NCBI GenBank assembly: GCA_016218705.1
Contig: JACRDC010000017.1
Coordinates: 1 to 64,000, forward strand
Length of the DNA: 64,000 nt
Source of the DNA: Desulfarculus sp.
GTDB lineage: Bacteria; Desulfobacterota; Desulfarculia; Desulfarculales; Desulfarculaceae
Direction: 5' to 3'
The first letter of the stretch is position 1. Every line of letters starts with the position of its first letter. Below the pieces are notes generated by a model. That model searched no databases. It worked only from the letters and a program-made list of their open reading frames with translations, and was not told the DNA's origin. Below are positions 1-22,950 of this stretch, piece after piece. Position numbers and translations under genes: made by a program.

Positions 1-224
1 GAAGCTCACTTACCGTGCGTGCGGTGGTCAATGCCTTCTTAGCCCTCTCCAAAACCTCCCTGCCTCTGGCCCTTCTACCCATTTGCCCACCTCCCTTGAG
101 ATGAGCTTATTATTACATATTTGAATTAGAAATGGAATTAGGCTTTCCTGGGCCGCCTATACCGTAAGGGCTGTACCCAGAGGAAACCTGACGAGAAAAC
201 CATACGTCTGATCTGAAATGCGTA

Positions 225-1328
225 TCAACTGGCCTGGAACAACCCGGGCTCCAGTTCCACGCCGGTCAGGACCAACTCCTTGAGGAAGCTGGGCTCCTGG
301 CCGGTGGCCTTTAGCTCTCCCAGCACCTTGCCGCTATCGGGGTCCTTGCCCTCCAGGTCAAAGACCAAGAGGGGATGGAAGCGGTAGTTGCCCTGGCTGT
401 CCAGCCCCAGCACCTCCACAATCTCGGTCAGGCGGCGGGAGCCGTCGGGGAAGCGCGATATCTGGGCCACCACCTCCAGGGCCGAGGCCACCTGGCCGCG
501 CACCGCGGTCAGCGGCAGTTCCACCCCTGACATGAGCGCCAGGGTCTCCAGGCGGCTTAGCGCGTCGCGGCCGCTGTTGGCGTGCACGGTGGTCAGGCTG
601 CCGGCGTGGCCGGTGTTCATGGCCTGCAACATGTCCAGGGCCTCGCCGCCCCGGCACTCGCCCACGATGATGCGGTCGGGGCGCAGGCGTAAGGATGCGG
701 CCACCAGGTCGCGGATGGTCACCGCCCCCCGGCCCTGGGCGTCGGGGTGGCGGGTCTCCATGGTCAGCACGTGGGGCTGGGCCAGTTGCAGTTCGCTGGC
801 GTCCTCGATGACGATGACGCGCTCGCCCGCGCCGATGAAGGACGACAGGATGTTGAGCAGGGTGGTCTTGCCGCTGCCGGTGCCGCCGGCCACCACCAGG
901 TTCTTGCGCGCCGCCACGCAGGCCTTCAGGAACCCCGCCGCCGCGCTGGTCAGCGAGCCCCGGGCCACCAGATCGTCCATGCCCAGAAGGCTCTTGGAGA
1001 AGCGGCGGATGGCCACGTAGGGACCGCGCCGGGCGATGGGCGGGATCATGGCGTGCAGGCGCGAGCCGTCGGGCAGGCGTGCGTCCAGAAAGGGCGTGTT
1101 CTGGTCAATGCTGCGCCCCACGAACTGGCTGACGTTGCGCACCGCGGCCAAGAGGCTCTCGGGCGAGGCAAAGGCGCGGTCGGTCTTGAGCAGCTTGCCC
1201 TGGCGCTCGATGTAGATGTCGCCGGGGCCGTTTATCATCACCTCGGTCACCGACTCATCTTCCAAGAAGTCGCGCACCGGGCCGAAGAACTGCAAGACCG
1301 TCTGGCTGAACAGGGGCTGGTCGCTCAT
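225..1328 (-). CDS. cpaF: Second, stand-alone CpaF/TadA-type pilus ATPase
   Basis: Cytoplasmic hexameric ATPase of the type II/IV secretion family that powers Flp (Tad) pilus assembly. The 367 residues hold the full catalytic core: Walker A GGTGSGKTT at 148-156, a Walker B-like IIVGECRGG at 220-228 and the TTVHAN histidine motif at 246-251. ATG is preceded by GAGGAAA. It is the last gene of the minus-strand Tad run, 54 nt after the TPR lipoprotein gene. Unlike the other CpaF in this locus (10111-12285) it has no ParA-like N-terminal part. Two CpaF motors in one cluster is unusual; a role in retraction or for a second pilin is inference only. Confidence 0.93.
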   Translation of the reverse strand: MSDQPLFSQTVLQFFGPVRDFLEDESVTEVMINGPGDIYIERQGKLLKTDRAFASPESLLAAVRNVSQFVGRSIDQNTPFLDARLPDGSRLHAMIPPIARRGPYVAIRRFSKSLLGMDDLVARGSLTSAAAGFLKACVAARKNLVVAGGTGSGKTTLLNILSSFIGAGERVIVIEDASELQLAQPHVLTMETRHPDAQGRGAVTIRDLVAASLRLRPDRIIVGECRGGEALDMLQAMNTGHAGSLTTVHANSGRDALSRLETLALMSGVELPLTAVRGQVASALEVVAQISRFPDGSRRLTEIVEVLGLDSQGNYRFHPLLVFDLEGKDPDSGKVLGELKATGQEPSFLKELVLTGVELEPGLFQAS

Positions 1329-1382: not shown

Positions 1383-3020
1383 TCATTGGCCGTGGCGCCC
1401 AAGCCAGGCGCGGGCCTTGTCGGCCCGGGGTCCCTGGGGCTCCAGCTCCAGGAAGCGCCGGAAGGCCTGGCCGGCGCAGGCGTTGTTCTGCAACTGGCCG
1501 GCGCAGACCCCGCCCAGGTTGTAGAGGGCCTGGGCGTGGCGGGGGTCGGCCTGGCTGGCGGCCTCGAAGGCCTGGCCAGCCTGGGCGTACTGCTTTTGCG
1601 CCAAGAGCGCCAGGCCGCGCAGGTTGTGGGCGGCGGCGTCCTGGGGTTCCTTGGCCAGTACCTCCTGGGTCAGGCGCTGGGCCTCCTGGGGCCGGTCCTG
1701 GGCCAGGCGCACCAGGGCCAGGTTGAAGCGGGCGGCTTGGTGGTCGGGCATGATCTCCAGCACCCGCGCTAGGCGCGCCCCGGCGGCCTGGCGGGTGGCT
1801 GGGGCGTCCATCTCCAGGCGGGCCAGGCCGATCAAGGCCGGCAGGTTGCCGGGCTGCAAGGCCAGGGCGGCCTGGTAGGGCGCGGCCGCCTGGGCGGCCT
1901 GCCCCTGGTCCTCCAAGGCCCAGGCCAGCACCAGGTGGGCCGCCGGCAACTCAGGCGAGGCCTTGACCGCCCGGCGCCCCAGGTCGGCCCGAGTTGCGGT
2001 CTCCTGTCCGGGCACCAGGGCCAGGGCCACAAGATTGACCCCGTCGCTGGGTTCGGCCTGCGCGGCCGCCTCCAGGTACTGGCGGGCCTTGGCCGGGCGC
2101 TCCTCCAAGATCATGGCCATACCCAAGGCCCGGCGGGTGGCCGCCGCGCCGGGATGGCGGCGGTACACGGCCACGGCCTTGGCCCTTAGCCGCGCCCAGT
2201 CGGCCGAAGGCGCCGGTTGGCCCTGTATGGCCAGGGCCAGCGAGCGCCAGGCCTTGGCCTCCACCATACGCGCGGCGGCCAGGGCGTCGCGGGGGTCCTG
2301 CTCGGCCCGGCGCTCGGCCTCCTGGGTGGCGCGGGCCAAAGTCGGCGGGTCCAGGCTGCATAGGGCCTGGCGGGGGCTCAGGGGACCCGCCGCCGGGGCC
2401 GGTGCCGGCGGCTGCGCCACCGGTGACTGGGCCGGGGCGTCCTGGCTGGGGGCGGGGGCCAGGCCCCAGGATTCCACCATGGACGCCAGGTCCAGCCCCG
2501 CGGCCTGGACGGGATGGGCCAGGGTGACCTGATACAGCCAGCCCTGGGCCGGCAGGTAGATGCGCCGGCATTGCTGCTCTGGCGTGGACCAAGTCAGCTC
2601 ATGGGCGGTCCTGCCAGCCAGCATCAGGGTCTGGCTCTGCCAGCCGCTGGCCCGGGGCAAGGCCATGGCCAGGCGCTCTTGCTCGGCCTGGGTCCAGGCC
2701 GGCTCCAGGGGCGGCTGGCTCGGGGACCGAGGGTTGGCCTCCACCACCAGCAGGTGTCCCGGCCAGGGCAGGGTGGCCCTGAACAGCAGGCCGGGCTGCT
2801 CGGCGCCGCCCGGCTCCAGGCGGCTGCCGGCGGGCAATTCCAGACGCAGGGGCGGGCTCTCCAGGCTGAAGACGACGGGCTGGGAGGCCTCCGGCGAAAG
2901 CTGCTCCAGGGAAGCGCGCATTTGAGCGCAGCCGGCGGCCGCCAGCAGCGCCCACAACCACGCCAGCAGCAGGCTGGCGGACAGAACTCGCTTGTTTACT
3001 GGCCTAATGTTTAGCGGCAC
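1383..3020 (-). CDS. tadD: TadD-like TPR lipoprotein
   Basis: Predicted outer-membrane lipoprotein of 545 residues: a hydrophobic signal at about 11-30 ends in a lipobox with Cys31, and TPR-like helical repeats fill roughly residues 240-545. The 200 residues between them are not recognised. TadD of Tad pilus loci is a TPR lipoprotein that supports secretin assembly, and position and architecture fit that role. I chose a GTG start at 3020 because an AAGGAGAAG ribosome site lies just upstream and a longer frame from 3092 would run deep into the preceding gene. The start overlaps the stop of the upstream FHA gene by 10 nt, implying translational coupling. Confidence 0.75.
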   Translation of the reverse strand: MPLNIRPVNKRVLSASLLLAWLWALLAAAGCAQMRASLEQLSPEASQPVVFSLESPPLRLELPAGSRLEPGGAEQPGLLFRATLPWPGHLLVVEANPRSPSQPPLEPAWTQAEQERLAMALPRASGWQSQTLMLAGRTAHELTWSTPEQQCRRIYLPAQGWLYQVTLAHPVQAAGLDLASMVESWGLAPAPSQDAPAQSPVAQPPAPAPAAGPLSPRQALCSLDPPTLARATQEAERRAEQDPRDALAAARMVEAKAWRSLALAIQGQPAPSADWARLRAKAVAVYRRHPGAAATRRALGMAMILEERPAKARQYLEAAAQAEPSDGVNLVALALVPGQETATRADLGRRAVKASPELPAAHLVLAWALEDQGQAAQAAAPYQAALALQPGNLPALIGLARLEMDAPATRQAAGARLARVLEIMPDHQAARFNLALVRLAQDRPQEAQRLTQEVLAKEPQDAAAHNLRGLALLAQKQYAQAGQAFEAASQADPRHAQALYNLGGVCAGQLQNNACAGQAFRRFLELEPQGPRADKARAWLGRHGQ

Positions 3021-4783
3021 AGCGGCAGCTTCTCCTTGATCTCCTTGTGGAGGGCGCCGTCCTCGGTAGTCAGTTGCAGAGCCTGGCGCCACTTGGCGCA
3101 GGCCGGCCCGCGCTTGCCCAGGCCCTCCAGCACGTCGGCCTCCTGGGCCAGGCGCACGGCCTGGCGCTCGGCCTCCTGCCTGGCCCTGGCCAGGCCAGCC
3201 TTGGCCTGGGGGTGCTCGGGCTGCAATTGCAGAGCCTGCCTGTAGGCGGCCAGGGCCTCGTTCAGACGGCCGGCCTTGTGCTGCTTGGCCCCCAGGGCGG
3301 CCAATTCGTCGGCCTTCTTGAGCGAGGCCTGCTCCAGGCGCTCCAAGGCCTGGCGTGCCTGGGCGGTCACGGCAAAGACGTTTTCGCTATCCAGGGCCAG
3401 GGCCTGCTCCAGGTCCTGGCGGGCTAGGATCAGGCTTTTCTTTTCCAGCTTGGCCAGGCCCTGGCGGTAGAGTTCCTGGGCCTGGGCCTCGCGTTGCCGG
3501 ACGGTTTCGGCGGCCTCCAGGCGCTGCCGCTCCTTCTGCTCCTGGGCGGCCTGGGCCTGCAAGATCAGGTGCCGGGCCAGGGCGTCGTTGGGGTCCACCT
3601 CCAGGGCCTGGCCGGCCAGCTCGCGCACCCGGGCGTAATCCTCCCGCTCCTGGGCGGCGCGGGCCTGGCGCCAGAGATCGTCCCGCCGCTGGCGGCGCAG
3701 GGTCTCCTGGCGCTCCAGGCTGGCTCTCTGGCTCTCGGCCTGGGCCAGGGCCTGCTGCGCCTGCTCCAGAAGCCGCCGGGCCTCCTCGTGACCGGGGTCG
3801 GCGGTAATGACGTTGCGCAGGAACTGGGCGGCCTCGGCATGGGCCCCGGCCTCCAGGGCCTGCTTGCCCTTGGTGAGGTTGATAACCACCAGGCGCTGGC
3901 GCTGCTCCTCCTGCTCGCTCTGCTGCCGCTGCTGCACGGCCTGGCTGACCTGACCGGGCTTGCCCTTGTCCCCGCCGCCGAAGACCAGGGCCAGGGCCAA
4001 CAGGGCCAGGGCCACTGCCGCCTCGCCGTAAAGGAGGAGCCGGCGGCGCGCGGAGGAGCCGGCGGCGGCGGGTTGTCCGGCGGGGGCCGGCGGGCTCTCC
4101 GGTTCCTGTGCTGCCAGGGGCGAGGCCTTGGCCCTGGTGTCGTCCGGGCCGGACAGGGGCGGCAGCAGCTCGATGGTCACGGTGCCGAAGCTCAAGCTCT
4201 GCCCCGGCGCCAGCCGGGCCTGCTCGATGGAGCGGCCCTCCAGCAGGGTGCCGGAGGTGCTGCCCAGATCGCGGACGCTAAAACCCTGGCCGTCCACGCT
4301 GATCTCGGCATGCCGGCGCGAGACCGAGGGGTCGGCCAGGCGCACGGCGCACTCTGGCGCGCGGCCCACCAGGCTGATCCCTGGTCCCAGGCTGAAGACC
4401 TGGCCGGTCTGCTCGCCGCTCAGCACCCTGAGCTGGGCCAAGACGCCGCCGGGGGGCTGCCCGGCCAGGCCCGCCGGGGGCGGGGGCTCCGGGGCGGGGG
4501 CCACCCTGGTCTGCGCGCCGGCCTCGGTTTCGGCCGTCTGCCAGTCCAGCACGAAAGGCCCCAGGGGCAGGGGCCTCTGGCCGCTAAGTTGGCCCTGCCC
4601 GCCGGCCAGGTCCTCGATCATGACGCCATGGGCCGAGACGGTCAGCCTGAGTTGGCTCTCGGCCACCGCCGGGTCGTCCAGCACCAGGTCGCTGTCCGGG
4701 CTGCGCCCCAGGGTGTAGCTGCCGGGCTCCAGGACCCTGAGCTCGATGTTGCGGCCATCGCGCGATACCGTGAGCCTTATCAA
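3011..4783 (-). CDS. Membrane protein with two FHA domains and a TPR/coiled-coil tail
   Basis: A 590-residue protein. A degenerate FHA domain at about 1-85 has the GR turn at 26-27 but lacks the SRRH phosphothreonine motif. A good FHA domain at 116-200 has GR at 140-141, SRRHAE from 155 and a GSTSGT turn. A proline-rich linker leads to one membrane helix at about 249-269, then a charged, Glu/Gln/Arg-rich TPR and coiled-coil region runs to the end. FHA domains bind phosphothreonine; here they should face the cytoplasm and the TPR part the periplasm. TTG start at 4783 is chosen for its AAGGAGAAG site. It is the middle of three FHA genes inside the Tad locus. Its partner kinase is not in the window. 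Confidence 0.8.
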   Translation of the reverse strand: MIRLTVSRDGRNIELRVLEPGSYTLGRSPDSDLVLDDPAVAESQLRLTVSAHGVMIEDLAGGQGQLSGQRPLPLGPFVLDWQTAETEAGAQTRVAPAPEPPPPAGLAGQPPGGVLAQLRVLSGEQTGQVFSLGPGISLVGRAPECAVRLADPSVSRRHAEISVDGQGFSVRDLGSTSGTLLEGRSIEQARLAPGQSLSFGTVTIELLPPLSGPDDTRAKASPLAAQEPESPPAPAGQPAAAGSSARRRLLLYGEAAVALALLALALVFGGGDKGKPGQVSQAVQQRQQSEQEEQRQRLVVINLTKGKQALEAGAHAEAAQFLRNVITADPGHEEARRLLEQAQQALAQAESQRASLERQETLRRQRRDDLWRQARAAQEREDYARVRELAGQALEVDPNDALARHLILQAQAAQEQKERQRLEAAETVRQREAQAQELYRQGLAKLEKKSLILARQDLEQALALDSENVFAVTAQARQALERLEQASLKKADELAALGAKQHKAGRLNEALAAYRQALQLQPEHPQAKAGLARARQEAERQAVRLAQEADVLEGLGKRGPACAKWRQALQLTTEDGALHKEIKEKLPLCR

Positions 4784-4814
4784 GGCTACTTCTCCTTGGG
4801 GGCCGATGGGAATC

Positions 4815-5753
4815 CTAGCGCCCCAGCTTGGCCCTGGCCTGGGCAATGTAGTCCGCGGCCTTCTGGTGCAGGGGGTGCTGAGGGTCGGGCAGCAGGCTCT
4901 GCACCACCAGCCAGTTCTGGATGGCCTTTTCGTAGTCCAGGTACTGAAAGCTGGTCAGCCCCCGTCGGTAGGCCTCCTCGGCCTTTTGCATGATCTCCTG
5001 CTCCACGCGCTCCAGCTTGCCCCGGGCCGCCTGAAGCCCGGGGTCAATTTCCAGGGCGCGGCGCCACTCCTGGGCCGCGTCCAGCAGTCGGCCGGCCTCG
5101 TGGTAGGTCTGGCCGTCGCGCAGGTGGGTGGCGGCCTTGGAGTCGTCCACGGGTGGAGAGGGTAGCGCCGCGGGGGTGGCCGGCCTGGGCGCGGCTGGCG
5201 CCGGGGCCGCCGCCGGAGTTGACGGGACCTGCTCCTTCTTGCCGCCACCCAAGAGCGAAACGGCCATGACCAGGGCCAGCACCCCCAGGGCGGCCAAGCC
5301 GCCCACCAAGAGCAGCCGGCGGGACTTGCCGCCGCCGGGGCTGGGCGGGACGGCGGCCTGCAAGGGCGAGGAACGCATCACCGTGGCCTGGCCGGCCTCG
5401 GGCGGGGCGGCGCCAACCGGGGAGCGGGAATCCAGGGACACCTCCACCACGCCCAGCAGCACCACCTGCCCCGGCACCAGCACGGCGCTCTCCACTCTGT
5501 GCCCGTTCAGCAACAGGCCGTTGGCCGAGCCCAGGTCGCTAATCAGGATGTCCTGGCCCTGGCGCTCGACCATGGCGTGGCGGCGCGAAACGCTGTCGTC
5601 CTCCAGCACCAGGCCGCACTCGGGCGAGCGCCCCAGCACGGTCTGTCCCTGGCCCAGCATGAACAGCTGGGGCGCAGCCCCGGGCCGGCGCACGCGTAGG
5701 TAGTCACCCGAAGGACGCCCGGCCACGGTCTGCTGGTCGAAATCCTGGCTCAT
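4815..5753 (-). CDS. FHA-domain membrane protein with TPR tail
   Basis: A 312-residue protein with a canonical FHA domain at about 30-108 (GRSPEC at 41-46, SRRHAM from 56, GSANG at 75-79), an Ala/Pro-rich linker, one membrane helix at about 147-169 and a TPR-like periplasmic region from about 208. It has the same layout as its downstream neighbour with one FHA domain fewer, so the two are probably paralogues. ATG overlaps the stop of the preceding gene as ATGA and has a GGGGAGG ribosome site. It likely reads a phosphothreonine signal inside the cell and passes it to, or anchors, envelope parts of the pilus; the target is unknown. Confidence 0.82.
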   Translation of the reverse strand: MSQDFDQQTVAGRPSGDYLRVRRPGAAPQLFMLGQGQTVLGRSPECGLVLEDDSVSRRHAMVERQGQDILISDLGSANGLLLNGHRVESAVLVPGQVVLLGVVEVSLDSRSPVGAAPPEAGQATVMRSSPLQAAVPPSPGGGKSRRLLLVGGLAALGVLALVMAVSLLGGGKKEQVPSTPAAAPAPAAPRPATPAALPSPPVDDSKAATHLRDGQTYHEAGRLLDAAQEWRRALEIDPGLQAARGKLERVEQEIMQKAEEAYRRGLTSFQYLDYEKAIQNWLVVQSLLPDPQHPLHQKAADYIAQARAKLGR

Positions 5754-7240
5754 GCTCGCGCCTCCCCTGGGGCGCCCAGGCCGCCCAAGACCACCAGCAG
5801 AGACGGCGCGCCCCCCGCCAAGGGGACCATGGCCGCCACGCTAAGGCGCACCATGCGGCCCTGGCCGTCGCTGACCTGGCGGGACAACACCTGCCCCGCC
5901 TGGGCCGTGGCCTGCTGAATAAGCTCCAGCAGCGGCGCCAGCAGGGCCGGGTCGGGCAAGGCCTCCAGGATGTGCCGGCCCGCCACCTGGCCCGGGTCCA
6001 GGCCCAGGGCCTGGCCAAAGGCCTGGTTGGCCAGGGTCACCTGGTTGTCGGCGTCCACCAGGAGCACAGGGTCGCCCACCGCCCCGGCCAGCAGGGTCAG
6101 GCCACCTTGCGGGCTGGCGGGGCCAGATGGAGCCAGGGGAGCGCCAGGCGCCTGGGCCGGCGCGGAAGGCGTCTGTGCCAGCTTGGCCAAGCCCCGGTTA
6201 ATGCTGGCCGCCAGGTCACTGAGTTGACCGCTGCCCTGGGTGGCGCTCACCTCGCGGGCGTCGCCCTTCAAGACCGCCTCCAACTGCTCGCGCAGGCGCG
6301 TCACCGGCCGGGCGCCCAGGTACAGCAGAAGATAGGCCACCGCCAGGGCCAAGAGCAGGGAGACCACCAGGCCCACCAGGGCGCCTTGCCAGAGACCGCC
6401 GCGCTGCCCGGCCAGCTTGTGCAGCGAAAACACCAGACGCGCCGTGCCCAGCCTCTCGAACTGCCCGCTCTGGGGCATGAAGACCTTGATGGGCTGGGCC
6501 AGGTCGTACTCGCCGGGGGCCGTGGTCTGCACCAGGAACTGCTCGGCCTGCAGGGCCTTGCGGGCCACCGCGTCGCCGGGCATCTGATGGAGCTGTGCAA
6601 GCGGTGCCCAGGTGCGCCCGGCGCGGTCATAGATGTAGGCCTGCACCACGCCCTCCATCTTGGCCACCTGCTTTACGTCCACCAGCATCTCGTCGCCCAG
6701 TTGCAGGGCCTCGCGGTTCAAGGCCGCCAGGGCCAGCACCAGGGCCGAGGCCCGCTCCAGGGCCTCGGTCTCCAGGGCCTCCTGTTGGCGGTTGACCATG
6801 GGCACGGCCACCACCAGGAAGCAGGCCAGAGCCAACAGAAGCAGGAGCAGGGCCACCTGCGCCCGCCAGCCCAGCCCGGCCAGCACGCCCGGCCGGGTGG
6901 CACCAGCCTCCTGGGTGGGGGCCGGCCCCGCCTTGGCCCGGGCCTGGTCCACGCGCAAAGCCATCTCGCTCAGGCCCACGCGTAGCACGTCGCCGTGCAT
7001 CAACTGCCCCCGCTCCACCCGCTGGCCGTTGATCCAGGTGCCGTTGGCAGAGCCCAGGTCCTCTACCTGAAGGCTGCGCTCGGCCAGCACCAGCTTGCAG
7101 TGGTGCCGCGAGGCCTCCTGGTCGCCCAGACGCAGGCTCGCGTCCTCGCCCCGGCCCAACAGGCTCTCGCGCCGGGTCAGTTCCAGCACCAGGCCCTTGT
7201 CCGGCCCCTTGAGGACCTCCAGGCTGAACCTAAGCTTCAC
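5750..7240 (-). CDS. FHA - membrane sensor - PAS protein without a transmitter domain
   Basis: A 496-residue protein: FHA domain at 1-98 (GRGED at 29-33, SRHH at 44-47, GSANGT at 63-68), membrane helix at about 126-148, periplasmic segment of about 135 residues, second helix at about 284-308, HAMP-like stretch at 309-355 and a PAS domain at about 383-490. It is built like a sensor kinase, but there is no histidine kinase, GGDEF or EAL domain, so output must be by protein contact. The GTG start at 7240 overlaps the preceding stop as GTGA and has a GGGGGAAGGA site. It lies between the DUF192 gene and the other FHA genes, so it is probably part of the same phospho-signalling group. Confidence 0.78.
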   Translation of the reverse strand: MKLRFSLEVLKGPDKGLVLELTRRESLLGRGEDASLRLGDQEASRHHCKLVLAERSLQVEDLGSANGTWINGQRVERGQLMHGDVLRVGLSEMALRVDQARAKAGPAPTQEAGATRPGVLAGLGWRAQVALLLLLLALACFLVVAVPMVNRQQEALETEALERASALVLALAALNREALQLGDEMLVDVKQVAKMEGVVQAYIYDRAGRTWAPLAQLHQMPGDAVARKALQAEQFLVQTTAPGEYDLAQPIKVFMPQSGQFERLGTARLVFSLHKLAGQRGGLWQGALVGLVVSLLLALAVAYLLLYLGARPVTRLREQLEAVLKGDAREVSATQGSGQLSDLAASINRGLAKLAQTPSAPAQAPGAPLAPSGPASPQGGLTLLAGAVGDPVLLVDADNQVTLANQAFGQALGLDPGQVAGRHILEALPDPALLAPLLELIQQATAQAGQVLSRQVSDGQGRMVRLSVAAMVPLAGGAPSLLVVLGGLGAPGEARA

Positions 7241-7656
7241 GCCGATCCTTCCCCCTGGGCCAGGGTTTCCCCGCCCACCTGTGGGCCGGCCACCGCCAGG
7301 TTGGGCGCCGGCCTGAACTCCAGCACGTCTCCCACGGCGATATCCCGGGCCGCGCCAGCGCCCAGTTCCAGGGCCGAGGCCGCGGTCCAGCGCCAGGGCG
7401 AAAGCCGCCAGGGGGGCAGATCGCGGCACACCCCCACCACTCGCTGCCCACGGTCCAGAAAAACCACGTCAATGGCAAAGCGCATGAAAAAAGTATGCAC
7501 CTGGCGGCAGGGAGAAATCCACAGACCCTGGCCCGGACCTAGGCCCCGGCTGCCCAGCAGGCCCCGCATGCGCTGGCCCAGGGACACCGCCGCCCGCGCG
7601 CGGCCGGCCACCTGGCCTGGGCGCGTAAGGTTGTGCACCTCAAAATCCGAGGACAT
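7237..7656 (-). CDS. DUF192 family protein
   Basis: A 139-residue protein of the DUF192 family. The signatures are R-MRGLLG near residues 29-34, the W-SPC-VHTFFM stretch near 46-58, and the IDVVFLD motif at about 62-68. The family is widespread, small and of unknown biochemical function. There is no clear signal peptide here. The start overlaps the end of tadC by 17 nt and the stop overlaps the next gene, so it is translated as part of the Tad operon. DUF192 genes are known next to Tad genes in other proteobacteria, so a role in pilus biogenesis is plausible but unproven. Confidence 0.85.
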   Translation of the reverse strand: MSSDFEVHNLTRPGQVAGRARAAVSLGQRMRGLLGSRGLGPGQGLWISPCRQVHTFFMRFAIDVVFLDRGQRVVGVCRDLPPWRLSPWRWTAASALELGAGAARDIAVGDVLEFRPAPNLAVAGPQVGGETLAQGEGSA

Positions 7657-8521
7657 ATTTGAGCACCAACGGGCCGATTATGACCACGAAGACCGCGGGC
7701 ATGATGCACAGGATCAGGGGCAGCAGTATCTTCTGGGTGGCCTGGGCCCCCAGGCGCTCGGCCTGCTGGAAGCGGTCGGTGCGCAGCTTGTCGCTCTGGG
7801 CGCGCAAGACCTGGCCGATGGACACGCCCAGCTTGTCGGCCTGGATCAGCACCGCCACGAAGGCGCTCAGGCTGGTGACGTTGCAGCGGTAAGCCAGGTT
7901 GCGCAGGCCCTCGGCCCGCGAGGCGCCCAGGCGAATCTCGCCCAACATCAGGCTAAGTTCCTCGATCAATGGGCCAGGCCGCGACTTGGCCACCACCTTG
8001 CCGATGGCGCCCATGAAGTCCAGGCCCGCCTCCACCGACAGGGCCAGCATGTCGGCCACGTTGGGCAAGGCGCGCACGATCTGCCGCTGGCGCAAATTGA
8101 CGCGGTCACGCACCCAGCGGTCGGGGAAGTAGAAACCCAGGAAGGCCGCCAGGGGCCAGGCCCACCAGGAGGCGTCGTGGTTGAACATGAACAGGAGCAC
8201 CAGGGCCACCAGGGCCAGGAAGAACTTGTAGGCCCACAGTTCGTCCACGGTGATCTCTTCGCTCAAGCCCCCGGCCAGGATGTCGCGCTGGCGCTTGAGG
8301 CGCCAGTGGGGGGCGCTGATGCCCCTGGTCAGGGGCACCATGCGGGTGATGAAGGGCCGGCTGAGCTTCAACAAAAGCGAGCGGGATACCTCTGCCTTGG
8401 CCTGGCCGCCCAGGGCCTGCACGGCCTGCTCCCGGGCGGCGCCAGCGAAGAACATCCGCGCCACCAGGAACACCGCCCCAAAGGCCAGCAGCAGGATCAA
8501 GATGAGCAGCAATTGGGTCAA
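7640..8521 (-). CDS. tadC: TadC-type inner-membrane platform protein
   Basis: Type II secretion F-domain protein of 293 residues, one of the two polytopic platform proteins on which the CpaF motor acts in Tad pilus assembly. An N-terminal hydrophobic helix is followed by a basic stretch, a helix pair at about 95-120, the conserved SVEAGLDFMGAI-type region in the middle and C-terminal hydrophobic segments. The start is TTG, supported by AGGAG six bases upstream; no better start was seen. TadB, its usual partner, is not adjacent: an RlpA-like gene and a small pilin gene lie between them. Confidence 0.9.
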   Translation of the reverse strand: MTQLLLILILLLAFGAVFLVARMFFAGAAREQAVQALGGQAKAEVSRSLLLKLSRPFITRMVPLTRGISAPHWRLKRQRDILAGGLSEEITVDELWAYKFFLALVALVLLFMFNHDASWWAWPLAAFLGFYFPDRWVRDRVNLRQRQIVRALPNVADMLALSVEAGLDFMGAIGKVVAKSRPGPLIEELSLMLGEIRLGASRAEGLRNLAYRCNVTSLSAFVAVLIQADKLGVSIGQVLRAQSDKLRTDRFQQAERLGAQATQKILLPLILCIMPAVFVVIIGPLVLKYVLGF

Positions 8522-8724: not shown

Positions 8725-9144
8725 CTATCTGGCCAGGCGGTAGACCACGGTGGAGCGCCGCCGGTCCTGGATGCCCAGGGCCTGGGCCGCCGCAGCGCTG
8801 AGGCCCAGCTCATCGCCGGGCTCCAGGAAGCCCCGGTCATTGACCGTCACCACGGCGGCGCGGCCGTTGGCCGGGTTCCTGACCTCCAGGCGGGTGCCCA
8901 GGGCCAGGGTGGCGTGGGAGGCCGTCAACTTGCGCATGTCAAAATCCTCGCCGCTGGTGGTGGCGCGGCCCTGGTGCATCTGTCCGAACCACAAGGCCTG
9001 GGTGACGACCCCTTGCTCCAGTTCCTGGGCGGTGGGGGGCGGGGGAAGGGGCACGGACTCCGGCGTGGGCACGCAGCCCACAACCAGGAGAAGCGCCGCC
9101 GTCAGGGCCAGGGCCAGGGTGAATCTAGCGGTGGTCATTTTCAT
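8725..9144 (-). CDS. rlpA: RlpA-like lipoprotein (septal lytic transglycosylase family)
   Basis: A 139-residue lipoprotein with signal peptide and lipobox ending at Cys24, and a double-psi beta-barrel domain at about 45-139. RlpA proteins cut naked peptidoglycan glycans. The conserved LTASH histidine (His77) and the VNDRG aspartate (Asp103) of catalytically competent members are both present. There is no SPOR domain, so it is not targeted to division sites in the usual way. It is embedded in the Tad operon between tadB and the small pilin gene. The likely job is to open the cell wall for the secretin or pilus; that role is inferred from context. Confidence 0.85.
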   Translation of the reverse strand: MKMTTARFTLALALTAALLLVVGCVPTPESVPLPPPPTAQELEQGVVTQALWFGQMHQGRATTSGEDFDMRKLTASHATLALGTRLEVRNPANGRAAVVTVNDRGFLEPGDELGLSAAAAQALGIQDRRRSTVVYRLAR

Positions 9145-9183: not shown

Positions 9184-10071
9184 CTAAACGTCAATGCTCA
9201 CTATCTTGCGGATCATCAGCCCGCCGATGGTCAACAAAAGGCCCATGAACCCCAGCATCACCCAGCCCAGGGCCGTGGTGAACAGAGGGCGCATATAGTC
9301 GGGGTTGATAAGGTAGAGCACCCAGGCCAGCACGAAGGGCATGGCCGTGAGTATCATGCCCTGGGCCACCCCCTGGGCGGTGAGCGTCTTGATCTTGCCG
9401 CGCACCTTGTCGCGCTCGCTGATGGTGTAGACGATGGTGTCGAAGGTCTCGGCCAGGTTGCCGCCGGTCTCCCTGAGGATGAGCACCGAATTGACCACCA
9501 GGCCCAGGTCCTCGCTGGGCACCCGCGTGGCCAGGGCCTCCAGGGCCTCGTCCAGGCCGCGGCCCATCTGCTGCTCCTTGAGCACCAGGGCCAGTTCCTG
9601 GCTCATGGGGTTGGGCATCTCCCGTCCCACCATGTCCAGGGACTGGGGCAGGGACAGCCCCGAGCGCAGGGCGCTGGCCAGCATGGTCAGAGCGTCCACC
9701 AACTGGTCGGCGAAGCGCCCCACGTAGCGGCGGCCCAGGTAGGCGGCCAGGCGTCGCGGCAGGCCCCAGGCCACATAGCCCAGCATCAGGCTGAAGAAGG
9801 CCTGCGCCGGCCAGGCCAGGTGCCAGGTCAGTCCCGCCCCCAAGGCCATCCCCGCCAGGGCCGCCCCCCAGACCATGAGCCGGCAATGGGCCAGCGGGAT
9901 TTCCTTGAACAGGCGCTCGCAGGTTTCGTGGATAAAGGCCGCGTCGTTCTCGCCCCGGCGCTGGAAGGCAGCCCACAGGCGCTGGCCGTAGCGGCTGCCC
10001 AACAGGTAGGCCGCCAGCCCGGCCATGAGGGCCAGGGCCAGCCCAGCCGCCTGCCATCCCAGGCCGCTCAT
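9184..10071 (-). CDS. tadB: TadB-type inner-membrane platform protein
   Basis: A 295-residue T2SSF-domain protein. An N-terminal hydrophobic segment, a helix pair around 75-110, the central cytoplasmic F domain (GLSLPQSLDMVG near 140, ending in the RETGGNLAETFD motif) and two C-terminal membrane helices match TadB, which with TadC forms the inner-membrane base of the Flp pilus machine. It follows the TadZ-CpaF fusion gene by 39 nt and starts at ATG with a GGGAG site. The conserved L-ETGGNL motif near the CpaF interface is intact. Confidence 0.92.
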   Translation of the reverse strand: MSGLGWQAAGLALALMAGLAAYLLGSRYGQRLWAAFQRRGENDAAFIHETCERLFKEIPLAHCRLMVWGAALAGMALGAGLTWHLAWPAQAFFSLMLGYVAWGLPRRLAAYLGRRYVGRFADQLVDALTMLASALRSGLSLPQSLDMVGREMPNPMSQELALVLKEQQMGRGLDEALEALATRVPSEDLGLVVNSVLILRETGGNLAETFDTIVYTISERDKVRGKIKTLTAQGVAQGMILTAMPFVLAWVLYLINPDYMRPLFTTALGWVMLGFMGLLLTIGGLMIRKIVSIDV

Positions 10072-10110: not shown

Positions 10111-12285
10111 TCAGGCATAGGTCTCCAGGAATATCTCGCGGGGCACGGACAGCCCCTTTTCCTCCAGGGTGGTCATGAAGCGCGGTATGAAGCCGCTGGC
10201 CAGGAAGCTGCCCAGCACCCGGCCTTCTTGGTCCACCCCGGTCTGGTGGAAGGTGAAGATGTCCTGCATGGTGATGACGTCGCCCTCCATGCCCGCCACC
10301 TCGGTGACCGACACCACGCGCCGCGAGCCGTCGGGCAGGCGGTTCTGCTGGATGACCAGATGGATTGCGCTGGCCAGTTGCTCGCGGATGGCCCGGCTGG
10401 GCAGATCGAAGCCGGCAAACATCACCAGGGTTTCCAGGCGGCGCAAGGCGTCGCGGGGGGTGTTGGCGTGCACGGTGGTCATGGAGCCGTCGTGGCCTGT
10501 GTTCATGGCTTGCAGCATGTCCAGGGCCTCGGCCCCGCGGCACTCGCCCACCACGATGCGGTCGGGGCGCATGCGCAGGGAGTTCTTGACCAGGTCGCGG
10601 ATGGTCACTTCGCCGGTGCCCTCCAGGCTGGCGGGCCGGCTCTCCAGACGGCAGACGTGGGGCTGCTTTAGCTTCAGCTCGGCCGAGTCCTCGATGGTCA
10701 CGATGCGCTCGTGGGCCGGGATGAAGGAGGAGAGCACGTTGAGCAGGGTGGTCTTGCCGCTGCCGGTGCCGCCGCTGATTACCATGTTCAGCCGGGCCTT
10801 GACGCAGGTCTCCAGCAGTTGGGCGATGGCCTGATTGAAGGTGCCGAAGCCCACCAGGTCGCTCACGCCCAGGGGCTTGGCCGCGAACTTGCGGATGGTC
10901 AGGAGGGCGCCGTCCACGGCCAGGGGGGGTATGACCGCGTTGACCCGCGAGCCGTCCTTGAGGCGGGCGTCCACCATGGGCGACAGCTCGTCTATGCGCC
11001 GGCCCAGGGGCGCCACGATGCGCTCGATGGTGGCCCGCAGGTGCTTGTCGGACAAGAAGCGGGCTTGGGTCAGCACCAGCTTGCCCTTCTGCTCCACGTA
11101 GATGGTGCGGGCGCCGTTGCACATTATCTCGTTGATGGCCGGGTCGGCCAAAAAGCCCTCCAGGGGACCCAGGGCCAGGGCCTCGTTTAGTATCTCGGCG
11201 GCCACCCGCTGGCGGGTATCGCGGTCGCTCAAGGCGGCGCCTTCCTCGTCCAGCAGGCGGTCAATGATGCGCCTGGTTTCTTGCTTGAGCGCCTGGGCCT
11301 TGGCGGGGTCCTTGGCCGCCTCCAGGTCCAGGCTCTTGAGGTCCATCTCGCCCAGCAGGCGCTCGTGCACCTTCAGCTTGATCTGGTCCACCTCATCGGG
11401 CTGGCCGGGGCTGGCCGGGGCGGCGGGAGCGGTGGGAGCGCCTTCCCCGGCGGAGCCGGCCGGGGCGAAGGCCGGCGATAGGGCCACCGCCGGGGCGGCC
11501 GTGGCCGGCCGGGCGCGGCGCTGGGACAGATCAGCCACCCCCCGGGTCCACAGGCTGGCCGCCAACTCGTCCAAGGCCTTGCTGATGGGGTGGCGGGGCT
11601 TGTCCAGGATGAGCAGGCCGCGCTGGCTTAAGGATTGGGCCACGGCGGCGGCGTCCTCGGGGATGGCCCCGGCCAGGGGGCGCTCCAGGCGGGCCTCCAC
11701 CGCCTTAGGCCCGAACTCGCTCTTGGGGTCGTGGCGGTTGAGCACCAGCGAGACCATCTGGCGGGGGAAGGCCAGGGCCTGCAGGCGCTCCAGGCCCAGA
11801 CGGGTGTGATTGACCGCGTAGAGGTCGGGGGTCAGCAGCACGAAGATATGCGACGCCAAATCCAGGCAGGCCTGGTTGAAGGGGCCGAAGCCGGTGCCCA
11901 GGTCCATGAGCACGATGTCGAAGGCCTGGGCCAAAAGCTCCAGGCAGCCGGACACGGCCTGGCTATCCAGGGCCAAGGCCTGCTCCGGGGAGTGGTAGGC
12001 CCCAAGGTAGGATATCCCGCTGGGATGCACGTCCAGGTAGCCCTTGAGCATGCTGGCCGGCAGCGAGGCCAACAGGGGCGCCAGGTCGCTCATGGCCCGG
12101 CGGGGCGGCGTCGTGCCCAAAGGCGCCAGGGCGTCGCCGGGCCACTCCAGGTCCAGGTCTACCAGCACCACGCGGCCCCGGGTCTCGCGCATCAGCGCCA
12201 CGGCGAAGTTGGGCGCGAAAAAGCTCTTGCCCACGCCCCCCTTGGCGCTGGTGACCGCGAAGACGGCTGCCCGGCCGGGGCTCAT
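10111..12285 (-). CDS. TadZ (ParA-like) - CpaF fusion ATPase
   Basis: A 724-residue protein joining two Tad components that are normally separate. Residues 1-250 form a ParA/MinD-like domain with the deviant Walker A KGGVGKS at 15-21, a VDLDLEWPG stretch at 42-50 and an IVLMDLG motif at 124-130, matching TadZ/CpaE polar-localisation ATPases. A Pro/Ala linker spans about 255-297. Residues 300-724 are a complete CpaF: Walker A GGTGSGKTT at 505-513, Walker B-like IVVGECRGAEA at 577-587 and TTVHAN at 603-608. There is no stop or frameshift between the halves. The fusion would place the localisation factor directly on the motor. ATG is preceded by a GGGGG tract. Confidence 0.92.
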   Translation of the reverse strand: MSPGRAAVFAVTSAKGGVGKSFFAPNFAVALMRETRGRVVLVDLDLEWPGDALAPLGTTPPRRAMSDLAPLLASLPASMLKGYLDVHPSGISYLGAYHSPEQALALDSQAVSGCLELLAQAFDIVLMDLGTGFGPFNQACLDLASHIFVLLTPDLYAVNHTRLGLERLQALAFPRQMVSLVLNRHDPKSEFGPKAVEARLERPLAGAIPEDAAAVAQSLSQRGLLILDKPRHPISKALDELAASLWTRGVADLSQRRARPATAAPAVALSPAFAPAGSAGEGAPTAPAAPASPGQPDEVDQIKLKVHERLLGEMDLKSLDLEAAKDPAKAQALKQETRRIIDRLLDEEGAALSDRDTRQRVAAEILNEALALGPLEGFLADPAINEIMCNGARTIYVEQKGKLVLTQARFLSDKHLRATIERIVAPLGRRIDELSPMVDARLKDGSRVNAVIPPLAVDGALLTIRKFAAKPLGVSDLVGFGTFNQAIAQLLETCVKARLNMVISGGTGSGKTTLLNVLSSFIPAHERIVTIEDSAELKLKQPHVCRLESRPASLEGTGEVTIRDLVKNSLRMRPDRIVVGECRGAEALDMLQAMNTGHDGSMTTVHANTPRDALRRLETLVMFAGFDLPSRAIREQLASAIHLVIQQNRLPDGSRRVVSVTEVAGMEGDVITMQDIFTFHQTGVDQEGRVLGSFLASGFIPRFMTTLEEKGLSVPREIFLETYA

Positions 12286-12371
12286 GGTCTACCCCCGCCT
12301 ATCCGCGCGCCCGGGCGGACAACCCTGGCGCCACGCGGGCCAGGGCCGCCGGTTGTGGCCCCCGCTAGGCA

Positions 12372-13808
12372 TCAGCGCTTGTTCTCCTGGTAGGTGTCGA
12401 ACTTCTCCTCCACCAGGCCCTTGAGGTCGCGGTGGGCCTCCGCCGCCCCCTGGCTGAGCACCGCCGGGGTGACGAAAACCACGAACTGGGAGCGCTTCTT
12501 CTGGAACTCCTCGGAGGCGTAGAGCTGGAACAGCGCCCCGCTGGCCCCGGTGGGCAGCTTGTCGAAGAGCTTGGTGTGGCGGTTGGTGATGAGCCCGCCC
12601 ACGGCCACGCTGTCGCCGGACTTGCAGTACTGCACCGTGGCCACGCGGCTCTTGGTGAAGTTGAAGTTGCCGCCGGGTTGGGCCTCGGTGGGCGAGGAGA
12701 CCACCACCTCTAGCTTGAGCGAGACGTTGTCGCCGTCGCTGATGGGCAGCACGTTGAGGAACACGCCGTATTCCTTGTAGCTGATGGTCACGGCCCCCGA
12801 GGACTGGGACACGGGTATGGCCACCTCGCCGCCGGACTGGAAGGCCGCCGGGTCGCCGGAGCGCACGCTCATGCTGGAGGTTTCCAGCACCTTGGCCCCG
12901 CCAACTTCCTTGGCCTGGCTCAGCTTGGGGAACAAGCTGCTGATGGTGCCCACGATGGAGCCGGTGAAGCCGGCGCCGGTGCCAATGGCCTGGGTGCCGG
13001 TGATCTGGTTGCCACCGTCGGAGGCGATGGGCAGCCAGGAGATGCCCCAGCCGTCAATGGTGGCGTTGTTGACCTCCATGAAGTTGGCCGTCACCTGGAT
13101 CATGTCGCCGGCCCCGGGGCGCAGCTCGCCAGGCTGCACCTGCAACAGGCTCTGCACGTCGGGGTAGTAGAGCCGGGCCATGGACTCCAGGCGGGCCGCC
13201 TGCTCCTGGCCGTAGGCCACGCCCTCCAGGACGATCTTCTGCCCCACCGGCCGCACGCGCACATTGTTGTTGGCCAGGTGCTGCTTGATGGAGTCGGCGA
13301 TGATGGACAGGGCCACCGGCGACAGGGTGACCATCTTTATCACCTGGGGCGAGTCGCCCACCATCTTGTCCAGGAGCTCGCGCTGCTGGGGCGTGGCCAC
13401 CTCGCCCTCGATGATGAGCTTCTCGCCGGCCACCCTAAAGCGCAGCCCCGGCGCCCGGCCCACCACCTGCTGTATCTCCTGTGTGAAGGCCTTGAGGTCC
13501 TTGACCAGCACCGTCAGGCCGTAGACGTCGCGCTGCTGGCCCTGGGCGTCCCACACGATGAGGTTGGTGGAGCCGGCCTTCTTGCCGTTGAGCAGTATCT
13601 CCGCCCCGCTGGCCTCGTTCTTCTGCACCAGGTAGTCGGCCACCGAGGGGTCGCCCACCGCCAGCTTGGAGAACTGATAGGGCAGGGTGAGGGTGGTGGA
13701 TTCGCCCAGGAAAATCCTCATGCCCTGGGCGCCGGCCGTGAGCCCCGCCAGCATCAGGACCATTGCCAGGGCCGCCAGGGCCGCCATCGTCACGCGCTTG
13801 AGCTTCAT
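12372..13808 (-). CDS. cpaC: CpaC/RcpA-type outer-membrane secretin
   Basis: A 478-residue secretin of the Tad pilus. A Sec signal peptide covers about 1-28, followed by the CpaC N-terminal domain (LPYQFSKLAVGDPSVAD near 40-57), BON-like modules (LIIEGEVATPQQRE) and the C-terminal secretin domain with its KEYGVFLNVLP and GLITN-type motifs. Multimers form the pilus channel in the outer membrane. I placed the start at ATG 13808 because GGGAGGA lies just upstream and the signal peptide begins there; a frame extending to 13856 adds an unlikely tail. It follows cpaB by 53 nt. Confidence 0.93.
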   Translation of the reverse strand: MKLKRVTMAALAALAMVLMLAGLTAGAQGMRIFLGESTTLTLPYQFSKLAVGDPSVADYLVQKNEASGAEILLNGKKAGSTNLIVWDAQGQQRDVYGLTVLVKDLKAFTQEIQQVVGRAPGLRFRVAGEKLIIEGEVATPQQRELLDKMVGDSPQVIKMVTLSPVALSIIADSIKQHLANNNVRVRPVGQKIVLEGVAYGQEQAARLESMARLYYPDVQSLLQVQPGELRPGAGDMIQVTANFMEVNNATIDGWGISWLPIASDGGNQITGTQAIGTGAGFTGSIVGTISSLFPKLSQAKEVGGAKVLETSSMSVRSGDPAAFQSGGEVAIPVSQSSGAVTISYKEYGVFLNVLPISDGDNVSLKLEVVVSSPTEAQPGGNFNFTKSRVATVQYCKSGDSVAVGGLITNRHTKLFDKLPTGASGALFQLYASEEFQKKRSQFVVFVTPAVLSQGAAEAHRDLKGLVEEKFDTYQENKR

Positions 13809-13861
13809 CGCCCGTCCTCCCGCCGCCTCTTGGGACGGCGCGCTAGTCAACACCACGCAAA

Positions 13862-14743
13862 CTACTTGCTCAGCTCCGTGCCTCGTATCTCCCGCCAGGC
13901 ATTGGGCTGGAACAACACCTTGTCGCGCACCCCCAGGAGGGTCTCCAGGGAAACCGGCACCACCGGCGCGCCCTCGCGCCCCTCGAACAAGGAGCGCAGG
14001 GCCAGGCTTATCTGACCCGAGTTCTGGGCCAGCACCAGGCCTTGGGTCTGCTGAGGGTCCAGGGCCAGGGTCACCGTGCGCACCGCGTCGGGCCGGGGCA
14101 TGCCCGTCATGCCCACGGGCATGCCGCCCGCCTTTTCGCGCCGCTGCTGCTCGGTCAGCGTCAGGGCCTTGGCGGCCTCGCTCTCCAGGCCCATCTGCTG
14201 GCCCACGGCCAGGACCAGCACATTCTGGAAGACCGTGAAGGTCTTATGGTCGCTACGCTTCATGTCGCCGAACTCGAAGGTGCCCAGCACGTCCACGAAG
14301 TTGCCCGGCTTGATGAGCCCGGCCAGGCCGCTGACGTCGTTGACGGCCACCGTGACCGCCCGCAGGCCCTTGGGCACCTTGATGGCCAGGCCGGTATCCA
14401 GGCCGTAGGCCACCAGCTTGGTGCCCAAGACCTGCTCGCCCTTGAGTATGGGCGCCGCCGTCACCTGGTTCAGGGCCTCCTTGATCTCGCTCAAGGCCCC
14501 CGGCTGCACGTACTGGCGCGGCACCTGCTGCACCTCCACCGAGGTTTCGTCCAGCCTGGTCATGCGCGGCAGGTCCTGCTTGGCCACCAGGGTGGGCACC
14601 GGCTCGGCCATGAGCCCCAGGGCCTTTTCGCGCTGGGATATGTATTGAAAGGTGAGCAGCAGGGCGATCACCCCCAGGGCAAGGGGGATGATAAGGCCTT
14701 TCTTACCCGCAAGGAACGATTGTGCCACGTCGGCCTCCGTCAT
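13862..14743 (-). CDS. cpaB: CpaB/RcpC-type pilus assembly protein
   Basis: A 293-residue protein with one N-terminal membrane helix (about 17-34) and a periplasmic SAF-type domain (VPTLVAKQDLPRMTRLD at 49-65), followed by the CpaB hallmark in which VPKGLRAVTVAV leads to LIKPGNFVDVLGT. CpaB sits in the periplasm and is thought to work with the secretin. Position directly before cpaC matches Tad loci elsewhere. A glycine/methionine-rich insertion (GMPVGMTGMPRP) near residue 212 is not typical. Confidence 0.92.
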   Translation of the reverse strand: MTEADVAQSFLAGKKGLIIPLALGVIALLLTFQYISQREKALGLMAEPVPTLVAKQDLPRMTRLDETSVEVQQVPRQYVQPGALSEIKEALNQVTAAPILKGEQVLGTKLVAYGLDTGLAIKVPKGLRAVTVAVNDVSGLAGLIKPGNFVDVLGTFEFGDMKRSDHKTFTVFQNVLVLAVGQQMGLESEAAKALTLTEQQRREKAGGMPVGMTGMPRPDAVRTVTLALDPQQTQGLVLAQNSGQISLALRSLFEGREGAPVVPVSLETLLGVRDKVLFQPNAWREIRGTELSK

Positions 14744-14766: not shown

Positions 14767-15282
14767 CTACTGGATGGGCTGGGCTATCGCCACCCCCAGG
14801 TCAAGGGTACGGCGGCCGCTGCCCAGGCCATAGACCAGGCTGTCGGCAAAGGCCCCCGGTACCCAATAAAAAGCATTCTCGCCCTGGCCGGTGTAGGCCC
14901 CACCAAAGACCGCCAGGCGCCGCTTGACCGTGTACTGGCCCGGTGTGCCGCCCTGCTGGAAATGCCCCAGGGCCATCTCCACCCCGGGCAGGGCCTCCAT
15001 GCTCTTCTCCACCGCGATCACCTGGTAGGCGAAGCGCTTCTTCTCGTCCAGCTTGTGGATGTCGGTGGTGCTCTGGTAGTGCACGGCGGCCATGACGTAG
15101 GAGGCCAGGTCGGAGATGAAGAAAAGCTGGGCCATGACCACCAGCAGCAAGACCAGCACCGTCACCGCGAACATGGTTTCCACCACCGCCTGGCCCTCCT
15201 GCTGCCCGCCCAAACGCCGCAGGGGCCGCCAGGGGGCCGCCCACCCGGGGCCTACTCTTCTGCGTGAAATGGGGCGCTGCAT
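14767..15282 (-). CDS. TadE/TadF-like pseudopilin
   Basis: A 171-residue protein with a basic leader, a QQEGQAVVET motif at about 28-37 and a hydrophobic helix (about 38-58), which is the class III pseudopilin layout of TadE/TadF. The rest is a periplasmic domain that I do not recognise. The start is ATG at 15282, with GGGAGAG upstream, 10 nt after the tadG-like stop. It likely becomes a minor component processed by the TadV/CpaA peptidase. It is distinct in sequence from the TadE at 16219-16650. Confidence 0.78.
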   Translation of the reverse strand: MQRPISRRRVGPGWAAPWRPLRRLGGQQEGQAVVETMFAVTVLVLLLVVMAQLFFISDLASYVMAAVHYQSTTDIHKLDEKKRFAYQVIAVEKSMEALPGVEMALGHFQQGGTPGQYTVKRRLAVFGGAYTGQGENAFYWVPGAFADSLVYGLGSGRRTLDLGVAIAQPIQ

Positions 15283-15292
15283 CAAGCTCTCC

Positions 15293-16222
15293 CTAGTGCA
15301 GATAGCGCTGGCTGAAGGGCAGCGGCAGGTCGTACTTGAAGTCGCTGTTGACCGGCGCGAAGCGGGCGATGTAGTCGGACTTGCGGTTCTCCACGTGGCC
15401 GCCAGTGGGCATGGCCAGGCTCATGGCGTACATGGCCGGTATCTCAACGTCAAAGCCCAGGTCCGGCAGGTTGACAAAGGGCTTGATGGGCTGGCGCCAG
15501 ACCAGCACCCGGTAGTAGGTGGCGGTTTCGGGGTCGCGCTTCATCCAGGAGTCCCACACCGCCATGCCCGCTACTGGTATACCCACGGCCGAGGTGGGGC
15601 TGATGGGCATGAGCCGAAAGGGCACGTTGGTGATGGCCGGCTGCTGGCAGCAGAGCATGGGGATGATGTGCATGTAGAACCAAGAGCCTTGGCCAATGTG
15701 ATCCAAGGCCGTCAGGCGGAACCCGGGGTAGACCGGGTGCACCCAGGGAACCATGTAGAAGGGGCGCGAACCGCCGTACTCTTGGTTGTGCCAGGCCAGC
15801 ACCCGGTAGGCCACCGCGTGGGCGCTGCCTGCGTAGACGGTGCTGGCCGCCTGCTGCATGGCGGCGTTGATGCTCATGAGGTTGCTGAAAAAGCTCACCA
15901 GGCCCTGGGCCGCCCCGGCGTTGACCCAGGTGCCGGCTGAGAGCCAGCGCTTGAGGTCGCGCTCCAGGGCGTAGTATTCCATGTTGAGGTCAGCTATCTC
16001 GTTGAGCCCCGCGGCCTGCACGTTGGCCGCCGAAAGGGCCACCATATCGGCGATGTTCTGGGACAGTATCTTGTCGTGCACCAATTGGCCCACGTTGACC
16101 ATGAAGGCCAGGAAGCACACCAGCACCATGGCCGACAAGGCCACGAAGATGGTGGTCTGGCCGCGCTGGTCGGCCAAGAGCCGGCGCGGACCGCCGGTGG
16201 CCTGTGGCCTGGGCCTGGTCAT
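15293..16222 (-). CDS. tadG: TadG-like Flp pilus assembly protein
   Basis: A 309-residue protein that begins with the TadG N-terminal signature: DQRGQTTIFVALSAM followed by a membrane helix and a VGQLVHDKILSQNIAD-AALSAA-like stretch. The rest is a periplasmic region without the von Willebrand domain seen in longer TadG proteins, so it is a short member. The true start is ATG at 16222, forming ATGA with the tadE stop. A longer open frame reaching 17053 runs through two other genes and is not real. Confidence 0.82.
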   Translation of the reverse strand: MTRPRPQATGGPRRLLADQRGQTTIFVALSAMVLVCFLAFMVNVGQLVHDKILSQNIADMVALSAANVQAAGLNEIADLNMEYYALERDLKRWLSAGTWVNAGAAQGLVSFFSNLMSINAAMQQAASTVYAGSAHAVAYRVLAWHNQEYGGSRPFYMVPWVHPVYPGFRLTALDHIGQGSWFYMHIIPMLCCQQPAITNVPFRLMPISPTSAVGIPVAGMAVWDSWMKRDPETATYYRVLVWRQPIKPFVNLPDLGFDVEIPAMYAMSLAMPTGGHVENRKSDYIARFAPVNSDFKYDLPLPFSQRYLH

Positions 16223-17177: not shown

Positions 17178-17210
17178 GCTAGCGCAAACCCGGGCCGGGA
17201 CCTCCCGGCC

Positions 17211-17450: not shown

Positions 17451-17649
17451 ACCCCTACCGATTAGCTATCATAGTTGGTTTAATGGCGTCAAGGACTCAT
17501 GCCCGCCGCCGGCAGGGGGGGCTGGCGGTCCTGTCGCCCAGTCCGGACTGGACGGGAAATCCCCCAAGGCGGTAACTTGATCGGTAGTGCTGGGTCTGGG
17601 CCGACACCGCCCCCCGTTTCATTCAATGATTTATCTGCACGGAGGAGCC

Positions 17650-22890: not shown

Positions 22891-22950
22891 ACCCAGCGGC
22901 CCCTGAAGATAGGGCAAACACTTTTCTCCCCCAGGCTCTCGGCGAGGCCC

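Follow-up and report, generated by a model that had tools for sequence, protein, structure and literature searches.

The window, a stretch of 64,000 nucleotides of Desulfarculus sp. DNA, forms the start of contig C78 in a 4.2-Mb assembly (G000) that is 99.08% complete. It carries a Tad/Flp locus on the minus strand with the gene order Flp, CpaA, TadE, TadG, TadE, CpaB, CpaC, CpaE-CpaF, TadB, DPBB, TadC, DUF192, FHA1, FHA2, FHA3, a TPR lipoprotein, and CpaF2. Its features, listed from the pilin end, are the following:

14767..17450, minus strand: TadE-, TadG-, and TadE-like genes, CpaA prepilin peptidase, and Flp pilin (TadG by PF13400, the others by position and sequence, their order being conserved in relatives)
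13862..14743, minus strand: CpaB/RcpC (PF16976, E 6.4e-27)
12372..13856, minus strand: CpaC/RcpA secretin (PF00263, E 7.4e-20)
10111..12285, minus strand: CpaE-CpaF fusion, ParA/MinD-like protein plus secretion ATPase in a single ORF (CbiA, E 8.3e-11; T2SSE, E 9e-63)
9184..10071, minus strand: TadB (PF00482, E 2.7e-18)
8725..9144, minus strand: RlpA-like protein of the DPBB fold, encoded between tadB and tadC (PF03330, E 4.2e-14)
7640..8521, minus strand: TadC (PF00482, E 6.9e-14)
7237..7656, minus strand: DUF192 protein between tadC and FHA1 (PF02643, E 1.2e-15), its place kept in the distant loci L126 and L150
5750..7240, minus strand: FHA1, composed of FHA, TM, periplasmic sensor, TM, HAMP-like, and PAS parts
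4815..5753, minus strand: FHA2, composed of FHA, TM, and TPR parts
3011..4783, minus strand: FHA3, composed of degenerate FHA, FHA, TM, and TPR parts
1383..3020 (end approximate), minus strand: TadD-like TPR lipoprotein (TPR_19, E 1.3e-15; likely GTG start; lipobox assigned by eye)
225..1328, minus strand: CpaF2, a second CpaF-type ATPase (PF00437, E 1.3e-53)
1..224, no strand: contig start and end of synteny with the related genome G013, with an 88-base repeat at 138-225

Pilin, prepilin peptidase, secretin, CpaB, CpaF, TadB, and TadC thus occur together, as expected of a Tad/Flp locus, the pilin and the peptidase being predicted from sequence and gene order. Two CpaF-type ATPases are encoded, one within the CpaE-CpaF fusion (an ORF of 724 aa; the fusion is also found in G013, G003, and G333) and the other, CpaF2, at the locus end. 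Next to the Tad locus, at 17587-21064, a GSCFA-family gene and a gene of the heparinase II/III family face each other, and 22792-25578 codes for a protein of 928 aa that combines HEAT repeats with a cyclic-nucleotide-binding domain at its C terminus.

From tadC to the TPR lipoprotein gene the reading frames overlap or are separated by gaps within about 30 bases, and DUF192, FHA1, FHA2, and FHA3 form one tight operon behind tadC, with 4-base overlaps of DUF192 with FHA1 and of FHA1 with FHA2. FHA3 most likely starts at the TTG at 4783, which is preceded by AAGGAG. The original prediction, that three consecutive coupled genes encode membrane-anchored FHA proteins, agrees with the coordinates on the minus strand, the overlaps, the domain scores, and the hydropathy. 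The Pfam FHA model gives 60.1 bits for FHA1, 59.1 for FHA2, and 85.0 for FHA3, where it matches two stretches, the first being a partial, degenerate domain (26.4 bits, profile positions 1-43); the four FHA domains of these proteins are the only PF00498 matches in the 4.2-Mb assembly. Hydropathy places two TM segments in FHA1 (131-149 and 288-306; a further call, at 468-486, is marginal and falls inside the PAS region), one in FHA2 (147-165, with an extra marginal call within the FHA domain), and one in FHA3 (250-268). In FHA2 and FHA3 positive charges flank the TM segment towards the FHA part. As regards the architectures first proposed, the FHA and TM parts, the PAS domain of FHA1 (Pfam E 2.4e-9), and the TPR of FHA3 (Pfam E 2.6e-8) are clear, the TPR of FHA2 is weak (E 3e-5, below the Pfam cut-off), and the HAMP label in FHA1, which has no Pfam match, is based on weak sensor-kinase alignments. 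The block had also been placed between tadC and tadD; its tadC border stands, and at the other border lies the TPR lipoprotein (1383-c.3020), which matched no TadD-specific model and is plausibly TadD by its position.

FHA1 and FHA2 are predicted to have an FHA fold with a phosphothreonine pocket. In FHA1 the G-R, S..H, and N-G residues are invariant in all seven aligned orthologs, and they are kept also in G333, a genome of another family of the same phylum; in FHA2 the G-R and S..H residues are present in all six proteins having that part and N-G in five of them, the G of N-G being absent in G017. FHA3 appears to lack such a pocket, the canonical Asn of its second FHA domain being replaced in the window (STSG) and in G014 (STAG), and this domain is shortened in G013. 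An AlphaFold model of FHA1, obtained with an input of three sequences, is of low confidence (pLDDT 53.5), and a Foldseek search of the PDB with this low-confidence model returned mainly FHA domains (GarA, OdhI, FhaA).

The T3SS ring protein YscD/SctD is an FHA-TM-periplasmic protein that organises the inner-membrane platform of that system. The FHA domains of the block might likewise serve a purely structural purpose as scaffolds and not recognise phosphothreonine: they share this topology, the Pfam Yop-YscD_cpl model scores as high as the FHA model on all three proteins, the FHA3 pocket is degraded, and the G000 assembly holds no recognised kinase. Such a role is nevertheless unlikely: the pocket residues of FHA1 and FHA2 are kept over great divergence, the NCBIfam SctD/YscD model TIGR02500 does not reach its cut-off (best 47.8 of 86 bits, for FHA3), and a kinase and a PP2C phosphatase accompany the block in relatives, as described below. 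The cut-offs of the T6SS TagH/Fha model TIGR03354 (42.1 of 120.25 bits, for FHA2) and of the gliding motility GltG model NF033760 (best 50.1 of 650 bits) were not reached either.

FHA domains are present in 9 of the 20 family genomes, and an FHA1 ortholog in five, exactly those in which a Tad locus of this second type occurs. These five also possess a second CpaB; that of the other four genomes is 52-98% identical to the CpaB of the window, while the 18 further CpaB loci in the comparison are 29-37% identical to it. The identity of FHA1 within the family falls to 43-51%. In G013 the order TadC-DUF192-FHA1-FHA2-FHA3-TPR-CpaF2 is unbroken, and in G014 it is spread over two contigs; contig ends leave only TadC-DUF192-FHA1-FHA2 in G017, which is 71% complete, and only TadB-DPBB-TadC-DUF192-FHA1 in G003, a member of another genus. 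When the non-FHA part of FHA1 was used as a query, 6 of 63 class genomes gave a match, the sixth being weak (E 4.4e-6) and confined to the C-terminal part of the model; the five orthologs all lie in the second-type Tad locus, and FHA1 genes without a Tad link, which would have counted against the proposed association, were not encountered among these 63 genomes. The stretches read of the first Tad locus of G000 (contig C62) and of its counterparts in G013 and G016 gave no FHA or DUF192 match. Other FHA genes were seen near Hanks kinases at three loci (L076, L074, and L078, in G012, G019, and G009, respectively) of genomes without a second-type Tad locus.

A scan of genome contigs with FHA1 gave 80 loci, mostly of generic FHA proteins, and in three of them TadC directly precedes an FHA gene: L126 (Bacteriovoracaceae), L150 (a MAG labelled Nitrosovibrio), and L201 (Myxococcota); at L133 only a weak ATPase match was found. 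L126 and L150 share the order TadC-DUF192-FHA1-FHA2-FHA3, the L126 contig ending within FHA3; their proteins resemble those of the window in length and domains, identity being 19-23%, and a simple hydropathy scan called no TM segment in FHA3 of L126 or in FHA2 and FHA3 of L150. The L150 contig has a G+C content of 45% and a Tad-FHA block resembling that of the Bacteriovoracaceae contig, and because of this G+C value its bin label may be wrong. In G333 and G272, both from another family of the same phylum, the order is TadC-FHA1-FHA2-FHA3-PP2C, and no DUF192 match was found in the block. The conserved succession of tadC, DUF192, and three FHA genes, suggested originally as something to look for, is thus found both in relatives and across phyla, and to judge from sequence the three-FHA block of Tad loci is real and old.

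An FHA1 search of the whole phylum gave matches at E up to 1e-18 in 52 of 395 genomes, most matches in the genomes other than G000 covering the FHA part only, and among 16 of the other 51 genomes, in which larger regions were inspected, Tad genes adjoin FHA in two. That most FHA loci of the phylum are not Tad-linked would suit a block that travelled as a passenger with the Tad locus and has another function. So would the TadC tree, in which the FHA-linked TadCs are neither united nor clearly separated (the G013 TadC was left out, and one outgroup sequence, L201_TadB, forms a long branch and is partly in a wrong frame). A passenger or chance neighbourhood is very improbable, however, given that gene order and architectures are kept in other phyla although identity is down to about 20%, and that a Bdellovibrio operon needed for predation joins tadC with an FHA gene.

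The observation that the window contains no Ser/Thr kinase or phosphatase gene is borne out by the assembly of G000, in which PF00069 has no match at E up to 1 and the sole PF13672 match is on a contig other than that of the window. A PF00069 match is present in 18 of the 20 family genomes. The nearby PknB-type kinase looked for in relatives is found at the locus in G013, G003, and G333, and a PP2C gene lies beside it in G014, G003, G333, and G272; kinase and phosphatase are thus both at the locus in G003 and G333, the kinase only in G013, and neither in the assembled locus of G000. In G013 a kinase-TPR gene is located 3.1 kb from CpaF2 and followed by conserved genes, with no PP2C in this cassette. 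The G003 contig begins inside an ortholog of this kinase (TPR end only, 51%), after which come genes for a lipoprotein-like and a collagen-like protein, then a conserved gene, PP2C, and Flp. In G014 this conserved gene and PP2C abut CpaF2, the kinase ortholog (69%) and the lipoprotein-like gene being at the end of another contig. The finished 4.16-Mb genome of G333 has three kinase matches, one of them a kinase-TM-SH3-like gene about 1.5 kb before Flp, whose product has a different C-terminal part and only 33% identity; its PP2C gene overlaps the end of FHA3. A lipoprotein-like gene and, by eye, a zinc-ribbon FHA protein gene are situated between this kinase and Flp (positions 11699-12893 of locus L283). 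A kinase similar to that of G333 is on another contig in G272. The K, HRD, and DFG motifs are intact in all five kinases checked, and the metal motifs in three of four PP2C phosphatases. After the FHA block of L150 comes a degenerate PP2C-like protein (VGACR), which has no Pfam match and resembles the G003 PP2C (BLASTP E 2e-10). The cassette gene next to the kinase occurs in 3 of the 20 family genomes, all with a second-type Tad locus; it was not found in the G000 assembly, and neither it nor PP2C was found in the 71% complete G017. By rough, after-the-fact arithmetic, the chance of a kinase lying near the locus is 0.015 in G333 and 0.026 in G013.

It is improbable that the FHA proteins read phosphothreonine made by an unlinked or non-Hanks kinase, in which case the block would be connected to a general signalling network instead of forming a dedicated switch. 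This would accord with the absence of a PF00069 match and the unlinked PP2C in G000, and with the kinases of the L126 and L150 genomes, which are on contigs other than those of the Tad block; the linked kinases of G013, G003, and G333 speak against it, that of G333 being one of three in its genome and lying about 1.5 kb from Flp.

As to G000 itself, the kinase may be missing only because the contig breaks off at the very point at which G013 has this gene. C78 begins just past CpaF2, and the HK, FtsH, and Hsp20 genes that precede the kinase in G013 are in G000 at the end of contig C60 (15,506 bases), so an assembly gap may account for the absence. The assembly may have been broken at the contig start by the 88-base repeat, which recurs on C62, C31, and C125; a short ORF that by eye resembles the start of a transposase lies between the first base of the contig and this repeat. 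The last bases at the ends of both C60 and C78 differ from those of G013, and for that reason a real rearrangement is also possible. The kinase of the window genome is predicted to lie in the gap between C60 and C78.

Since distant relatives keep the block, some of them with a kinase and a phosphatase, protein phosphorylation probably acts as the switch of this pilus or secretion machine. The best reading, which we hold to be reasonably probable, is that the second-type Tad machine possesses a dedicated phosphothreonine switch consisting of kinase, FHA proteins, and phosphatase. The gene order, the domains, their conservation, and the linkage to kinase and phosphatase genes in relatives are observed; the phosphorylation, its targets, and the signal are inferred. 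On this view, a signal from the envelope or from contact would be sensed by a membrane Hanks kinase, with its catalytic domain in the cytoplasm and its TPR or SH3-like part outside it, and this kinase would phosphorylate threonines of Tad inner-membrane parts or of the FHA proteins. FHA1 would contribute periplasmic and PAS input, and FHA2 and FHA3 would bind phosphothreonine in the cytoplasm; through one TM helix, their TPRs would engage periplasmic partners such as the TadD-like lipoprotein or the secretin base. This engagement would license pilus assembly or firing, and the PP2C phosphatase would reset the switch. Several observations count against this reading: neither a PF00069 match nor the cassette gene was found in the G000 assembly; FHA3, of the three the protein closest to a published phenotype, has a replaced Asn and a degenerate first domain; the L126 and L150 genomes have their kinases away from the contig of the Tad block; the L150 phosphatase is degenerate; PP2C is missing from the G013 cassette; G017 yielded neither PP2C nor the cassette gene; and the G333 kinase is divergent. 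The phosphothreonine control of pilus assembly that was suggested originally is partly supported.

More tentatively, and with somewhat more doubt than belief, an ancient threonine-phosphorylation pathway dedicated to Tad may be envisaged, in which the three membrane FHA proteins, one of them acting as a periplasmic sensor, would together with a kinase and PP2C form a transmembrane switch licensing Tad on contact, common to predators (Bdellovibrio, Myxococcus-like) and to bacteria not known as predators. If so, attack or adhesion that depends on contact may be driven by it in the latter. The kinase and phosphatase candidates, both of which G003 and G333 supply within the locus, bear on the question of how contact switches a Tad machine. 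Searches of open-licence PMC papers turned up no description of a Tad locus that combines a kinase, PP2C, and FHA.

A close likeness is found in Bdellovibrio bacteriovorus, in which tadC (Bd0470) is in an operon with the FHA protein gene Bd0474, and a Bd0474 mutant attaches without killing (PMC6561027). Bd0470 to Bd0475 are reported as a single operon; its product Bd0473 is a 386-aa FHA protein, and Bd0474 (674 aa), which combines two FHA domains in the cytoplasm with a TPR part outside it, binds Bd0075 via the C-terminal parts (PMC12034629). These data, as far as the relevant parts of the two reports go, fit the block, because the operon runs from tadC through the FHA proteins and the FHA-FHA-TPR protein Bd0474 is needed for killing after attachment. 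By description only, Bd0473-Bd0474 equal FHA2-FHA3 in architecture, so that the conserved block links a killing gene to a defined three-FHA module; unlike in the loci of the relatives, a linked kinase is not described in those parts of the reports (PMC6561027, PMC12034629). The Kil system of Myxococcus xanthus, compared by description only, is also a Tad-like apparatus with several FHA proteins, of which KilD is essential for prey killing (PMC8460266, PMC10433427), and its authors propose contact signalling resembling that of T6SS (PMC8460266). It differs in that the ATPase KilF, too, carries a fused FHA domain, the genes form two clusters, TadG and TadD are missing, and the sections concerned name no kinase or phosphatase (PMC8460266, PMC10433427). 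FHA is tied to a Tad system in the CpaF class III proteins too, but it is there described as fused to the ATPase (PMC12019362), in contrast to the separate membrane proteins of the window. Certain T7SS subtypes are reported to encode a kinase-phosphatase-FHA set with the secretion machine, though this is the T7SS of Gram-positives (PMC11217815). In the T6SS PpkA-PppA-Fha pathway, according to the parts of the literature dealing with it, a membrane kinase, a phosphatase, and an FHA protein accompany the secretion locus, and FHA binds phosphothreonine of an inner-membrane part (PMC3953482, PMC3224232); among the relatives, kinase and PP2C genes are both at the Tad locus in G003 and G333, in G013 the kinase only, and in G014 PP2C, with the kinase on another contig. 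Here the machine is Tad, the TagH model is not matched, and the FHA proteins are three, all with TM segments and two with TPR; with these differences, the Tad kinase-FHA-phosphatase switch would best be read as an analogue of the T6SS threonine-phosphorylation pathway.
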